NCBI GenBank assembly: GCA_012735465.1
Contig: JAAYHJ010000014.1
Span: 1 to 64,000 of the forward strand
Reading direction: 5' to 3'
DNA from: Clostridiaceae bacterium
GTDB taxonomy: Bacteria > Bacillota > Clostridia > SK-Y3
Length of the DNA stretch: 64,000 nt
The notes below the pieces were generated by a model, which had not been told where the DNA came from, did not search any database, and saw only the letters and a program-made list of their open reading frames with translations. The translations under genes were made by a program, and so were the position numbers. Shown here piece by piece: positions 1 through 46,643 of the stretch. How positions within the stretch are numbered: the stretch's first letter is position 1; every line of letters begins with the position of its first letter.

Positions 1-165
1 GGCAGATGGTGTAGCGTAAGCGATAGTCTGCCAGCCTAGGATGCTATATGCACTGTCCTAGGAGGGGTGATGACGCACCCTAAACTTTGGGGAACTACGG
101 ATACCGGAAATGGACTTCCGATTACCAACAAAGAATCCCCTGATTTTAGTCACGGGGAGTGTCAA
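1..165 (+). mobile_element. Right end of an IS200/IS605-like (possibly IStron) element with structured RNA
   Basis: The stretch folds into successive hairpins: GGCAGA/TCTGCC (1-6 with 27-32), CCTAGGA/TCCTAGG (35-41 with 56-62), GGGTG/CACCC (65-69 with 76-80), CGGAA/TTCCG (105-109 with 116-120) and CCCCTGA/TCA-GGGG (137-143 with 150-157). The last hairpin sits in AAGAATCCCC...GGGGAGTGTCAA, which resembles the right ends of tnpB-carrying IS605/IS1341 elements, where the omega RNA ends. The segment AAGCGATAGTCTG near 18-30 also resembles the 3' strand of the P7 core of group I introns, so a chimeric IStron is possible. The transposase or tnpB would lie to the left, outside the window. This assignment rests on sequence resemblance only. 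Confidence 0.5.
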
Positions 166-253
166 TCCAAGTAAATGTCCTATGTGTAAAGAAGGTCGCA
201 AATCGGATGCAATTATTGTTCATGGAGGTTATTTGAACATGCAAAGGAGTTGA
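164..253 (+). pseudogene. 3' fragment of a zinc-ribbon coding sequence interrupted by the element
   Basis: Directly after the presumed element end a frame reads NPSKCPMCKEGRKSDAIIVH and continues GGYLNMQRS before TGA at 251-253. There is no start codon or RBS of its own. The same frame is closed upstream by a stop at 71-73 inside the element. The CPxC followed by a V-H-G-G-x-L pattern weakly resembles the C-terminal zinc ribbon of class II (B12-dependent) ribonucleotide reductase, but later cysteines are missing, so the tail looks decayed. It may be the 3' exon of an interrupted gene or a dead remnant. The identity is a guess. Confidence 0.35.
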
Positions 254-288
254 AAATTAAAATACATCTGAAAAGGAGCTAATAAATA

Positions 289-1143
289 ATGGAGTACTTA
301 AGAACCGATTATCATGTTCATCCGAACTACTCTATAGACGCTTTCCCTGTCCAAATAAGGGAGTATTGTAAAAAGGCACTGGAATTAAATTTGGCGGAAA
401 TTTGTTTCACTACCCATATCGAACTGGAACCGGAACGCAGGGAAATTGACAATTTTGTTATTTTTAACGGAGAAAAGATATCGGTTTTCAACCATGCCTG
501 GCTGGACAGTTATTTAAGCGAAATTGCCCAAGCAAATCAAGAGTTTAGGCATTATAATCTCAAGGTAAAGGCCGGAATTGAAGTAGGATACTGCCGGGGC
601 TGCGAAAAATATGTAGAAGAAATCGTTAATAATTATCCCTTTGATTTTGTACTGGGAGCCATACACTGTCTCGACCATATTGCTATTTCATCCATGAAAG
701 AAAGCCCGTATTATTTCCAAAACAAGAGCCTGGCCGAATTGCGTAAGGAATACTTTACTACCCTTGAAGAGATGGTGACCACGGGACTTTTTGATTGTAT
801 TGCTCATTTGGATCTTTACATTAGGTATGGGCTTAGGCATTATGGGCCCGAGATTCTTACCATTCACCGTGGAGTAATAGAATCTATTTTTTCAGAAATG
901 ACCCGCAGGGGCATGGGGCTGGAAGTCAACACTTCCAGCCGCCGTAGGGGGTTAAAGGAATTTCATCCCATAAGGGAAATACTGGATTTGGCAGCAAGGG
1001 CAGGAATTAAAATCTTTACAGTTGGTTCTGATGCCCATTCTCTTGATCAACTGGGCGATTACATAGATGAAGCTCTGGACCTTTTAAAAGACCTTAACCT
1101 GCGCAATCATGTTTTCACCCGCCGAAAAGCAGTACCATGTTAA
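289..1143 (+). CDS. PHP-domain phosphoesterase, histidinol-phosphatase (HisK) type
   Basis: A 284-residue protein of the PHP metal-dependent phosphoesterase family. The metal-ligand pattern is visible: DYHVH at residues 7-11, the FTTHIE segment near 40, GAIHCLD near 125, a HLDLYIR segment near 165, and the terminal VGSDAH near 245. Histidinol-phosphate phosphatases of the HisK type have this length and motif order. No other his gene is nearby. The gene converges on the inositol operon and shares its last bases with it (stop codons overlap at 1140-1143), so a phosphatase acting on an inositol phosphate is an alternative I cannot exclude. An AAGGAG site lies about 9 bases before ATG 289. The fold is well supported, the substrate is not. 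Confidence 0.8.
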   Translation: MEYLRTDYHVHPNYSIDAFPVQIREYCKKALELNLAEICFTTHIELEPERREIDNFVIFNGEKISVFNHAWLDSYLSEIAQANQEFRHYNLKVKAGIEVGYCRGCEKYVEEIVNNYPFDFVLGAIHCLDHIAISSMKESPYYFQNKSLAELRKEYFTTLEEMVTTGLFDCIAHLDLYIRYGLRHYGPEILTIHRGVIESIFSEMTRRGMGLEVNTSSRRRGLKEFHPIREILDLAARAGIKIFTVGSDAHSLDQLGDYIDEALDLLKDLNLRNHVFTRRKAVPC

Positions 1144-2471
1144 GCTGCTTTTCTAAGATTGTAAAGGCGGATAAAAGTTTGCAGGTGGGTACCTATTGCT
1201 AGCAAGATTAGGGTGGCCGGCAGCAGGTTTAAAATGCCTCCCAGCATGATGATAAATAATCTGCCGTCGCGATTTGCCGGGAAGTAACGCATTATGCCAT
1301 CGTGTATTTCGGGAATAAACGGCTTGCCAAGGGCATTTCGGAATTTTTCTTTAAAAACCATGGACATGGGCATTCCTGTTAGGGCTGCTGCGCCTACCAG
1401 CAGCGCCATGGAATCACCTGTGGCGTGATACCACGAATAAACCATTCCAGCCACAATTAAATAATCCCCATAGCGATCAAGTATCGAATCAAAAACTTCA
1501 CCAAAACTGCTTTTTAAAAATTTTAAACGTGAAATTTCTCCATCCACTCCGTCCAGTACGGAAGCAAGCTGTGCCAAAAGCCCTCCCAGTAAGGGTTTTG
1601 CCATGGCAAAGGATACCGCTGCAACTGCTGTAATCAAGAAGGATAAAAGGGTCATCTGGTTTGGTGTTACTGATGTTGAGGCTAATAGCCTTGTTATCCT
1701 GATGGAAAACCTACGATTAAAAACTCGGGATATAAAGCCGTCTTTAGCAGGTATCAGCGATTTTAAAAGAATTTTTTCCGCATGTTTGTAACTATGATAA
1801 TCATCCACGTCAACCCAATTGTTTTTTACAAAGTGTAATTTAACCTTACCAAGTTCGGCCATAAGGTTAACCGCATCGGTAAGGGCATAGGCTCCCCTTT
1901 CAATTGACCTGGACAAGGCATCCAATAATGCCCCGGTGCCAATGAAAAGGCCACAGTCTACAGCATTATAATCATTAAGTCTTTTGCCGAGTTTTACGGC
2001 ATAGTTCCCCTCGAATTTTACTTTGGTACATTCATCAATATCATAAACTTTTTCCAGTTGACTGTCGGCAGCAAGCAGCAGTTCATCCTGCTTGATATTC
2101 TCTGCTTCTTTTATAAAATTCTTTAATAAGTCCAATTCAAAAACATGGTCGGACATCAATAAAACGAACTTTTCATGTTTGTGGTAGTCCTTTCGGAAGG
2201 TGTATGCCGACATGCCGTTTCCCTTTTCCCAGTCCGGGTTATGTAAATAGTTAAGGCTTACCCCGAACTTTTCACCATTGCCTAAATAATCCTTTAGCTC
2301 GGTAGAATAACAGCCTGTGATTATTATAAAATCCTTTATACCGCATTCCCTTAATGACAGGATGTTGCGTTCTATCAGCGTAAGACCTAGTAAACGTGCA
2401 AGAGGCTTTGGCCTGTTAAAGTAAGGCCGCAGCCTCCTTCCTTCACCGGCAGCTAACAATACGGCTCTCAT
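1140..2471 (-). CDS. Bifunctional inositol-1-phosphate cytidylyltransferase / CDP-inositol phosphotransferase (IPCT-DIPPS type)
   Basis: A 443-residue fusion. Residues 1 to about 225 form a sugar-nucleotide-type nucleotidyltransferase (MRAVLLAAGEGRRLRPY, then RPKPL). Residues about 245-443 form a membrane-embedded CDP-alcohol phosphatidyltransferase with the signature D-x2-DG-x2-SR-x8-G-x3-D-x3-D (DGVDGEISRL...GEVFDSILD). This architecture is known from enzymes that make CDP-inositol and join it to inositol-1-phosphate to give phosphorylated di-myo-inositol phosphate. The open frame extends further upstream, but those 87 codons only shadow the inositol synthase gene. ATG 2471 overlaps that gene's TAA as TAATG, which implies translational coupling. 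The acceptor in this organism (inositol phosphate or a lipid) cannot be read from sequence. Confidence 0.85.
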   Translation of the reverse strand: MRAVLLAAGEGRRLRPYFNRPKPLARLLGLTLIERNILSLRECGIKDFIIITGCYSTELKDYLGNGEKFGVSLNYLHNPDWEKGNGMSAYTFRKDYHKHEKFVLLMSDHVFELDLLKNFIKEAENIKQDELLLAADSQLEKVYDIDECTKVKFEGNYAVKLGKRLNDYNAVDCGLFIGTGALLDALSRSIERGAYALTDAVNLMAELGKVKLHFVKNNWVDVDDYHSYKHAEKILLKSLIPAKDGFISRVFNRRFSIRITRLLASTSVTPNQMTLLSFLITAVAAVSFAMAKPLLGGLLAQLASVLDGVDGEISRLKFLKSSFGEVFDSILDRYGDYLIVAGMVYSWYHATGDSMALLVGAAALTGMPMSMVFKEKFRNALGKPFIPEIHDGIMRYFPANRDGRLFIIMLGGILNLLPATLILLAIGTHLQTFIRLYNLRKAA

Positions 2472-3562
2472 TATCTTTCTCTCCTGCCATCTATGAATTC
2501 TTCTACCATTTTTTTCGCTTCCGTATCCGTGTATTGAATTGGCGGAGACTTCATGGTAAAAGCTGAGATGGAATCCAATGTGCCGCCAATCTTGCGGTCC
2601 AGGGCTATCTTCATACATCTGATGGCATCGATCATTACGCCTCCGCTGTTTGGAGAATCTTCTACCGAGAGCTTTACGTCCAGTGTCAGTGGAACATTTC
2701 CAAATCCTCTTCCTTCCATTCGAATAAAGCAAATCTTATTATCATTTAGCCATGGTACATAATCACTGGGGCCTATGTGTATGTTATCAGCTGTTAAGGC
2801 TGTTTTTAACTCTGATTGCACAGCTTGGGTTTTTGATTTTTTCTTGGATGCAAGTCTGCTGTGGTTAAGCATGTTTAAAAAGTCAGTGTTTCCTCCGAAA
2901 TTTAGTTGATAAGTACGATCAAGAACCACACCGCGGTTTTCAAATAACTTGGTTAAGGTGCGGTGAACAATGGTTGCTCCTACCTGGCTTTTAACGTCAT
3001 CACCTATTATCGGAATGTTTTTATCACGGAATTTTTTAGCCCAGGATTCATCGGAAGCAATAAAAACCGGCATAGCGTTGATAAAACCTACATTAGCTTC
3101 CAGGCATGCTTCAGCATAAAACTTTGCAGCATTTTCAGAGCCTACCGGCAGATAATTAATAAGAATTTCAGCCTTACTTTCCTTTAAAACTTTAGCTACA
3201 TCGCAGGGCTCCTGGTCTGCGACCACAAATCTTCTGTCTTCGTCATAATCACCCATATGTTCTGATACACCGTCCATGACCGGCCCCATATGAACCTGTA
3301 CAGGATAGTCCGGCAGCTTGTCATAAAATATAGTAGTGCAGTTGGGCTTGGAAAATATTGCCTCTTTAAGAGGTCTGCCTACTTTACGCTTGTCCACATC
3401 GAAGGCGGCAACAACATTGATATCGCTTGGTGTATAGCCGCCAAGGTTATAATTCATCAGCCCAATAATGTTTTCAGGTGACTCCTTATACATTTCAATA
3501 CCTTGTAACAAGGCACTGGCGCAGTTACCTATACCTGCAATAGCAATGTTGATCTTAGACAT
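2471..3562 (-). CDS. myo-Inositol-1(3)-phosphate synthase, Ino1 family
   Basis: A 363-residue NAD-dependent isomerase that converts glucose 6-phosphate to inositol 1(3)-phosphate. The N-terminal Rossmann motif GIGNCASALLQG lies at residues 11-22. Conserved family segments follow: NYLPVGSE, FINAMPVFIAS, GDDVKSQVGATIVHR and the NFGGNTDFLNM block. The length fits the short bacterial/archaeal form rather than the roughly 500-residue eukaryotic one. The stop overlaps the start of the cytidylyltransferase fusion, so the pair form an operon that makes an inositol phosphate and then activates it. An AAGGGGG RBS lies 8 bases before ATG. A long leader with a terminator-like hairpin precedes the gene. 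Confidence 0.9.
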   Translation of the reverse strand: MSKINIAIAGIGNCASALLQGIEMYKESPENIIGLMNYNLGGYTPSDINVVAAFDVDKRKVGRPLKEAIFSKPNCTTIFYDKLPDYPVQVHMGPVMDGVSEHMGDYDEDRRFVVADQEPCDVAKVLKESKAEILINYLPVGSENAAKFYAEACLEANVGFINAMPVFIASDESWAKKFRDKNIPIIGDDVKSQVGATIVHRTLTKLFENRGVVLDRTYQLNFGGNTDFLNMLNHSRLASKKKSKTQAVQSELKTALTADNIHIGPSDYVPWLNDNKICFIRMEGRGFGNVPLTLDVKLSVEDSPNSGGVMIDAIRCMKIALDRKIGGTLDSISAFTMKSPPIQYTDTEAKKMVEEFIDGRRER

Positions 3563-3937: not shown

Positions 3938-4012
3938 TTAGATGTTATTGACAAGATATTGAGTTTTTTATACATTTGCTTACTGATTATTTTAATATTG
4001 AGGTAGGAGAAT

Positions 4013-6130
4013 ATGAAAAAAATAAGTAGAAGGATTATTGTATTATTGGCATTGGTTGTGTTTTTTGTATGTTCTGGTTTAGGGATGGTAGCCTATGTAA
4101 AAGCCAGTAATTCACTGGTGGATGTATTAAAAGAAACCATGCCCAAAATTGCAGTAGAGGCAGCAATAACAATAGAAGACGGAATACAAAACAAACTTAA
4201 CACGTTGAGCATTATAGCATCATTGGACTACATGAATGTACTGAATGAGCCCGGTGCAGATTATTCTAAAATAAGGGCTATTATGTCGGATGAAGTAAAA
4301 AGATCAGGGCACAAACAAATGATATTGGTCGACAAAAACGGGAAAGCTTTATTTGATAATGGTACGGTTTCAGACTTGAGTAACAATCCAATCTTTGAGA
4401 ATGTCCTATCGAGTAAGGAATTTGTCTCGGAACCCGTACTGGATAGCAAAGGAACAGATATCATTATGATATATGCCGTCCCTATAAAAATAGACGGAGA
4501 AGTAGCAGGTGCATTGATGGCCATAAGGGACGGACTGGAGTTGAGTGATATTGCCGGAAAGATTAAGGTTGGACAGACAGGGGAGACTTTTATTATAAAT
4601 AGTCAGGGGAAAACCATTGCCCATACGGACAAAAACTTCCTGCTGGAGTTGATAAGTGTTGCCAGGTCGAGGAATTCTTCTGCATCTGCCGGTACCATTG
4701 CAAGCGACGGAATATCTTCAGCAACCGTTACCACCGAGACACCTGATGTAATTTCTTCTGCATCGCATGACTCAGGAAGCCTGTCTGAAAAATTAGGATT
4801 TGAGGGGTTCAATGATGTGCAAAGGGAAATGACGGAAGGGAAAATAGGCTTTGGAGAATATAAATTTCACGGCATCTCCAAAGTTTCAGGATATGCACCC
4901 CTTGAGCGGTATGGCTGGTGTATTGGCGTTGCAGTTAACAAAGAAGAAATGCTGGCAGGGCTGGCAGAGCTGCAGTGGGCTTTTATACTTATATCTATTA
5001 TATTTATACTGGTAGGATTTGTGGTTGCATATTTTATTGGAAAAGGTATTTCCAGACCCATAACCTTTTTATCGAATGAATGCAATATAATGTCCAATGG
5101 GGATTTTTCGAGAACCATGGAAGAAAAATATACGAAAAGACGTGATGAAATAGGTGATTTGGCCAGGTCTTTTAATAACATTAATGTAAATGTATCAAAG
5201 ATAATACGAAATGTTATTGAGGAAGCCAACAGTGTGGGCGAAGCAATTAAGAATATTGATGAAAACATGTCCTCACTTACTTCCGATATAAATTATATGT
5301 CCGGTATCATAAATAGGTTATCTTTAAAAATGGATGAGAATTCTGCTACTACACAAGAAATGAGTGCCACTTCCAATGATATTGAGGGAGCTATTGATTC
5401 CATAGCCAATGAAGTTCAGCATAGCGCACAAACGGCCGGAGAAGTAAGCAAGAGAGCAGAAAAGCTTAAAGCTACTGCTGTGGATTCTCAAAAAAGGGCC
5501 CAGGTAATTCAACAGGACGTTGCAGTAAAACTAAGAAAGGCTATAGAGCAGTCAAAAGCTGTAGAAAGAATACAAGTATTATCCGATGCGATATTGAATA
5601 TATCTTCAGAGACGAACCTGCTTGCGCTAAACGCAGCAATTGAAGCTTCACGGGCAGGAAGTGCAGGCTCGGGTTTTGCCGTTGTTGCAGGGGAAATAAA
5701 GAAACTGGCTGAGAGCTCAAAACAAACCGTAGATGAGATTAAAAAAGTAACAAAATTGATAATGGAATCGGTACAAATCCTTTCGGAAAGTGCCGAACAG
5801 GTTCTTGGCTTTTTAGAGGATAAGGTTGTAAAAGATTATGATATGCTTGCGGTGACTGCAGAGCAGTATAACAGGGATGCCCAACTGCTCAATGAAATGG
5901 TTACAAATTTAAGTGCTACTATAGAAGAATTATATGCTTCCATACACAGCATGACAAAAGCTATTAATGATGTTGCAGCTGCTTCAGAAGAGGGGGCATC
6001 TGAAACTTCAGACTTAACCAACGAAGCTGCCGTTATCGTCAAAAGGACAAGCGAAGTATTGAAAAAAACCAATGATGTCAACAAAAGTGCTGATAAATTA
6101 CTGAAACTTGTATCAATATTTAAGGTATAA
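4013..6130 (+). CDS. Methyl-accepting chemotaxis protein with periplasmic Cache-type sensor
   Basis: A 705-residue transmembrane chemoreceptor. A signal-anchor helix spans about residues 8-30. It is followed by an extracytoplasmic sensor of about 290 residues that looks like a double Cache domain (the [20 protein letters not shown] segment is typical). A second helix lies near 322-345, then HAMP and the cytoplasmic methylation/signalling coiled coil. The kinase-contact hairpin [15 protein letters not shown] falls near residues 530-545. No CheR-docking pentapeptide is seen at the C-terminus. Residues about 225-255 are a Ser/Thr/Ala-rich stretch, an unusual low-complexity insertion in the sensor. 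The hemerythrin gene follows 70 bases downstream and is probably co-transcribed. The ligand is unknown. Confidence 0.92.
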
Positions 6131-46333: not shown

Positions 46334-46372
46334 AAAAAATGCATACATACCAATGAAAGTATATATGCATTA
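46334..46372 (-). terminator. Expression-platform terminator of the TPP riboswitch
   Basis: On the minus strand AATGCATATATAC (46372-46360) pairs with GTATGTATGCATT around TTTCATTG-type loop bases, followed by TTTTTT. It lies between the aptamer and thiM, so thiamine pyrophosphate would promote termination. Confidence 0.85.
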
Positions 46373-46387
46373 ATTTCTCCTGAATAT

Positions 46388-46476
46388 ATCCCTACGTTGG
46401 CATTACCCAAATCAGGTTACGGGTCTAAGCACACAGCTTAATTTCAGCCTGCTTATTGCAAGCTCCCCTTGTATTT
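46388..46476 (-). promoter_or_regulatory. TPP (THI-element) riboswitch
   Basis: The minus strand carries the conserved blocks in order: AAGGGGAGC, GGCTGAAAT (consensus CTGAGA, one change), AGACCC, ACCTGATTTGGGTAATGCCA and CGTAGGGA. The last two are nearly invariant in thiamine pyrophosphate aptamers. A promoter with TTGATT and TATAAT lies just upstream on the same strand (about 46485-46512). It controls thiM-thiD. Confidence 0.95.
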
Positions 46477-46643
46477 TTCTTATATTATAATACGAGCTGA
46501 TGAAAAATCAAGTATATTATCATAAATGAACTTTTGAAAACTATAGCACTCACTTGATAATAATAACTTATTTGTATAAAATGGAACAAAACAATGCATA
46601 TAAATGCATATGTAAGAAACCTTTTGAACAAGGAGGACTATTT

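Follow-up and report, generated by a model that had tools for sequence, protein, structure and literature searches.

The DNA analyzed here (hereafter, the window) is a 64,000-nucleotide stretch from the genome of a Clostridiaceae bacterium (assembly of 2.32 Mb in 95 contigs, with 98.57% estimated completeness), and its first base is the first base of contig C92. Its left edge comprises the last codons of a tnpB gene, a conserved RNA fold that overlaps the tnpB 3′ end and runs to what is almost certainly the right end of an IS605-type element, and, directly beyond that end, the 3′ end of a phosphoribosyltransferase-like gene (Table 1). Nothing to the left of the contig start can be read directly, including the left part of this element copy.

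Table 1. Features at the left edge of the window
Feature	Position	Strand	Basis
tnpB, last codons and stop (ADGVA, TAA at 17-19); remainder off contig	1..19	+	Translation
Omega RNA (reRNA) scaffold, overlapping tnpB 3′ end and right end	1..165	+	Covariation, fold
Stem 1 (1-7 paired with 26-32)	1..32	+	Helix 1: 5 of 7 pairs changed on both sides, 98.1% of cells paired
Stem 2	35..62	+	Helices 2 and 3: 6 of 10 pairs changed on both sides
Stem 3	64..81	+	Helix 4: 2 of 6 pairs changed on both sides
Stem 4 with inner stem 98-120	85..133	+	Helices 5, 6, and 7: 11 of 13 pairs changed on both sides
Right guide sequence GAAT (GR)	133..136	+	Letters read; identical to IS608 GR (excerpt of PMC5934647)
Right-end hairpin (helix 8), imperfect palindrome of the TnpA-bound kind	136..158	+	RNA fold, DNA fold, helix 8 (4 of 9 pairs changed on both sides)
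Right cleavage site TCAA (CR); element end at 165	162..165	+	Match ends; identical to IS608 CR (excerpt of PMC5934647)
Predicted guide, 16 bases directly outside the right end	166..181	+	Inferred from ISDra2 (excerpt of PMC8612924)
3′ end of phosphoribosyltransferase-like gene; 28 codons starting at 167, ending with the stop (251-253)	166..253	+	Homologue C-termini, profile match

The tnpB tail was recognized by comparison with related elements. The first 20 bases of the window are identical to those of locus L077, whose tnpB reads ATVADGVA and a stop in the same register, and the tnpB genes of L087 and L091 likewise stop at the position of window base 19. A stop at 37-39 in frame 1, suggested by four relatives that terminate there, was rejected because frame 2 yields ADGVA and a stop as in L077.

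A guide sequence, a hairpin, and a cleavage site are all present at the right end. Folded as DNA, the hairpin has a z-score of -2.01, with 9 of 200 shuffles folding equally well. A search of 398 genomes of the phylum with a 170-base query, in which at most two candidates were scored per listed genome, yielded at least 35 non-self matches; at least 23 genomes matched, counting the source genome itself (at least 22 of the 397 others). Twenty-seven of the 35 matches end at query base 165, 166, or 167, and the remaining 8 end before base 165; beyond 165-167, the flanks of the related copies differ. Given this shared stop and the differing flanks, we placed the right end of the element at 165, which bears out the IS605-type end, AATCCCC...GGGGAGTGTCAA, that had been described in a first-pass annotation of this DNA.

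Elsewhere, a distant DNA search with window positions 1-300 matched 19 plasmid records, including 10 from Bacillus and 6 from Paenibacillus, and the matches in Paenibacillus larvae and Peptoclostridium acidaminophilum overlap the end of an annotated RNA-guided endonuclease TnpB. A DNA search of 99 genomes found the same DNA in none of the 98 relatives of the source genome, the window itself being the sole match; the element is thus patchily distributed. With a covariance model, 4 of 59 other relatives gave additional but weaker matches (best E-value, 1.7e-8), and no second right end was detected among the 150 of 351 candidates scored in the source assembly. A phage-borne IS605-type element was also observed in Geobacillus virus E3 (L026, ~4001-4036), where the last 36 bases, corresponding to window positions 131-166, are 94.4% identical.

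The hairpins could alternatively be a regulatory or terminator structure of the PHP-domain gene that starts shortly downstream, at 289, and not part of a transposon. We consider the probability of this reading negligible because related 165-base copies precede unrelated flanks in many genomes and terminate at the same base, and because positions 1-165 contain a tnpB tail and end motifs exactly as in IS608. We assign positions 1-165, with very high confidence, to the right end of an insertion sequence of the IS605 group (IS200/IS605 family, with IS608-like ends) of the kind that carries both tnpA and tnpB. That such an element end lies against the end of a coding gene, as originally proposed, is upheld by the tnpB tail, the right-end motifs, and the C-terminal piece of the host protein.

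Positions 1-165 fold into the five consecutive hairpins previously noted, with a minimum free energy of -59.9 kcal/mol, a stability reached by 1 of 200 shuffles (z = -3.15). The description of these folds as omega-RNA-like found support in an alignment of 15 sequences, for which the RNAalifold consensus contains 45 pairs, 28 of them with changes on both sides. In this alignment, 95.2% of 672 cells pair, versus 29.9-46.8% when the partners are slid by one to three columns, a comparison biased in favor of the consensus, which was derived from the same alignment. The covariation score was reached by none of 500 shuffles; the 15 sequences are related, some of them near copies, and their cells are not independent events. 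The window sequence itself forms 43 of the 45 conserved pairs. Both of its unpaired cells are in helix 5, the outer part of stem 4, which is displaced by one base in the best fold of the window sequence alone. Judging from this covariation, positions 1-165 fold into an omega RNA, the guide scaffold that is predicted to bind TnpB.

Two mini-elements in genome G306, L083 (reverse complement of 2975-3253) and L084 (2795-3158), span 279 and 364 bases, respectively, from TTAC to TCAA and are thus too short to accommodate tnpA or tnpB. Of the 45 conserved pairs, 41 and 42, respectively, still form in them. These mini-elements hint that the omega RNA might be maintained by selection apart from a tnpB in cis, a scenario that we deem unlikely. 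If it holds, the mini-elements might supply guide RNAs in trans to TnpB encoded elsewhere, as might the window copy, provided that its tnpB is damaged.

The left end of the element was approached through relatives and through other contigs of the source genome. In all nine relatives examined, two of which (L083 and L084) are copies within one genome, TTAC lies 7-15 bases before a left-end hairpin motif, and AAAG directly precedes the hairpin in eight of the nine, the exception being L087. The motif list was drawn up after the sequences had been viewed, and in four of the nine loci a second motif match lies 39-198 bases from TTAC. With TTAC at 0.08-0.49% of the positions of these loci, nine chance occurrences at such a distance are unlikely. 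We infer that TTAC also precedes the window copy; TTGAT, our first guess at the target, was dropped because the relatives show TTAC.

Contig C87 of the source genome ends inside a tnpB of the same subfamily and carries TTAC at C87:21632, followed by a left-end hairpin with AAAG, a tnpA gene (Y1_Tnp, PF01797, E-value 2.2e-41; TnpA is also present in some relatives), and the first 241 codons of tnpB (PF01385, 2.7e-7), whose product is 62% identical to the TnpB of L087. Comparison with L087 suggests a gap of approximately 100 tnpB codons from C87 to the window. The terminal 127 bases of C87 (22760-22886), inside tnpB, are identical to the end of contig C90 (8499-8625; L163 and L173), in which the tnpB match sets in near codon 200 and is not preceded by a left end of the same element. 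This common end resembles the k-mer overlap expected where an assembly breaks, and it implies that at least two tnpB copies or partial copies seem to enter the same unassembled middle. The break at base 1 of the window contig was probably caused by at least two copies or partial copies with common tnpB sequence. Contigs of other genomes (L077, L081, L082, and L064) likewise start 15-162 bases ahead of the right part that was matched, a type of assembly break like that of the window contig.

Two candidates for the left part of the window copy were considered. The reading obtained by joining C87 to the window, GYQVTPSKCPMC, is suggestive, but its score was reached by 104 of 300 shuffles of the left flank; C87 is a candidate rather than a proven left neighbor. 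The tnpA and tnpB of contig C78 were rejected as the source element because the tnpB tail and the right end differ. The C78 locus (1150-2760; L037) is a second, different IS200/IS605 element in which tnpB is open whereas a stop interrupts the tnpA match; pieces of a more decayed copy similar to this element are found at C90:5600-6370 (L173).

The translation of positions 167-253, PSKCPMCKEGRKSDAIIVHGGYLNMQRS, proceeds without an internal stop or frameshift across 28 codons and contains the CPMC and VHGG motifs that had been noted in the first-pass annotation. Homology to the host protein begins at 167, one base past the base that follows the element end, and the piece starts at codon 189 of a 213-aa homologue. 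Six of 98 other genomes match it at E-values of 1.1e-4 or lower, with all further matches at 0.06 or higher, and all six homologues are open proteins of 211-215 aa, with start codons that we selected. A profile search of named genomes identified 57 loci of the host gene, many of them in Clostridia MAGs and Lachnospiraceae; in a search limited to these loci, the 28-aa piece matched 37 of the 57 at E-values of 1e-3 or better. The neighborhood does not appear to be conserved: no match to the PHP protein with an E-value below 1e-5 was detected near the 57 loci, in fetched flanks some of which are ended by contig ends.

The host protein family matches the orotate phosphoribosyltransferase model TIGR01367 at 3.2e-4 but far below the cut-off of that model, three of five members match PF00156 (best E-value, 0.042), and the solved orotate phosphoribosyltransferase 4paw matches at 0.011. 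The host protein would thus appear to be phosphoribosyltransferase-like, with approximately 213 residues, its family being weakly placed. The length of the full-length homologues and this weak similarity contradict the earlier suggestion that the fragment belongs to a ribonucleotide reductase.

At the exact site of insertion, the intact homologue L111 reads TTAC followed by TCCAAG and L097 reads TTAC followed by TCTAA; TTAC followed by T occurs at this site in 2 of the 32 intact homologues shown. As the right end abuts the gene and these two homologues carry TTAC and T, insertion into such a gene is likely. Neither a single protein nor a five-sequence profile located the first 188 codons in the 98.57%-complete assembly; insertion into a working gene is therefore not proven. 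In both searches the C-terminal piece was the sole confident match in the source genome, and both alignments overrun the element boundary by two or three codons, presumably a chance extension. Weak matches on contigs C8 and C44 (E-values of 0.008 to 0.026; 23% and 32% identity) may be other phosphoribosyltransferases.

The chance is slightly less than even that the host piece is an old stub, having lost its first 188 codons either ahead of the insertion or later, such that no working gene was interrupted. The absence of the 5′ part from an assembly of this completeness points in this direction, as does its absence from beside the element on both C87 and C90, which end in the common tnpB sequence; against it, the 28 codons are free of stops and frameshifts, and the 5′ part could reside with an additional copy whose contig was lost or left unbinned.

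The first-pass annotation had also raised the possibility of an IStron. In that case, a group I intron at the off-contig 5′ side of the element would be spliced from the host mRNA. The element does adjoin a coding gene, the left side of the window copy is off the contig, and TTAC followed by T lies in the reading frame of the intact homologue L111, such that precise removal could restore the frame. Searches for the intron itself argue against this proposal. An Rfam search for Intron_gpI gave no match in the source genome among the 138 of 169 candidates scored, with a model that may miss IStron introns; a control search for group I introns gave matches in 4 of 14 genomes, above the cut-off in 2. 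No group I intron was detected at the gathering score in 25 loci (23 fetched loci and the ends of C87 and C90), most of which contain related elements and several of which are cut off on the left. Across the whole window, Rfam yielded no group I intron, the one match being a TPP riboswitch (46372-46479, minus strand, 61.7 bits). With E-values up to 10, positions 1-600 gave four chance-level matches and no group I intron at the gathering score; the GIR1 match at 213-295 scores 13 bits versus a gathering score of 100.

The P7-strand motif that prompted the proposal, GATAGTCTG, is indeed present at 22-30 and is the only exact occurrence in the window, but with up to one mismatch the window contains 8 matches against 8.59 expected, which is the chance level. 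Positions 26-30 lie within the 3′ strand of the covarying stem 1, and this overlap explains the motif without a group I intron. In addition, according to the excerpt of PMC4227781, the IS component of IStrons is located downstream of intron P9.2, so a P7 strand is not expected after tnpB. The same excerpt describes IS200/IS605-type (group A) IStrons as ending in TCAG and following TTGAT, ATTAT, or TTTAT, and gives the 3′ terminus of group B IStrons as CGG, once CAG; the element described here ends in TCAA, and its relatives follow TTAC. Finally, the left part on C87 has 113 bases between TTAC and tnpA, which leaves no room for an intron core, the ribozyme comprising 200-500 bases in that excerpt. 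Taken together, these observations make an IStron very improbable.

Excision and insertion by TnpA at TTAC and retention by TnpB are established knowledge of the IS200/IS605 family. Under the favored interpretation as a tnpA- and tnpB-bearing element, TnpA would recognize the end hairpins and cut the right end after TCAA and the left end after TTAC; it would carry the element to new TTAC sites in the form of a single-stranded circle. TnpB would bind the RNA from positions 1-165 together with ~16 flanking bases (166-181), and the guide would direct TnpB against the empty site once resealed (TTAC followed by TCCAAG); repair after the cut would restore the copy, which would thereby be retained. 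For the window element, activity, transcription, and the guide are predicted by analogy with these systems.

The element is a further example of a common, known type of bacterial jumping gene with an RNA-guided nuclease. It adds a TnpB and omega RNA element with a well-supported RNA fold and a predicted TTAC target motif, might be of some use for choosing small RNA-guided nucleases, and provides an example of a short group I-like motif arising from an omega RNA stem.

Apart from the element, the window encodes, at 1140-3562 on the minus strand, a cytidylyltransferase fused to a CDP-alcohol phosphotransferase, adjoining an inositol-1-phosphate synthase; the best solved relative of the fusion is 4mnd (3.3e-52), a bifunctional inositol-phosphate enzyme. 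The fusion and the synthase perhaps represent the di-myo-inositol phosphate pathway. This pathway is typical of heat-loving microbes.

Among known systems, IS608 of Helicobacter pylori has, according to the excerpt of PMC5934647, GAAT and AAAG as its right and left guides and TCAA and TTAC as its right and left cleavage sites. The GAAT, hairpin, and TCAA of the window agree with IS608 letter for letter, and TTAC is found at all nine related left ends, with AAAG preceding the hairpin in eight of them; the host is different, and the likeness of the window concerns the end motifs, as seen at the right end alone. Group A IStrons such as CdISt1 are, as far as the excerpted source describes them, also built on IS200/IS605 elements, and differ from the window element, in which no intron core was found, in the terminus (TCAG versus TCAA) and the target. 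In ISDra2 of Deinococcus radiodurans, the guide RNA likewise consists of the tnpB 3′ end and the right end, with ~16 nt of flanking DNA forming the guide (excerpt of PMC8612924), whereas its target is TTGAT versus the TTAC predicted here. Similarity at the DNA level extends to the IS605-type elements on plasmids of Paenibacillus larvae (82% identity over 25-139) and in Peptoclostridium acidaminophilum (74% over 25-165), both overlapping the end of an annotated TnpB; the tnpB genes of these elements stop at the position of window base 39, whereas the window tnpB stops at 19.
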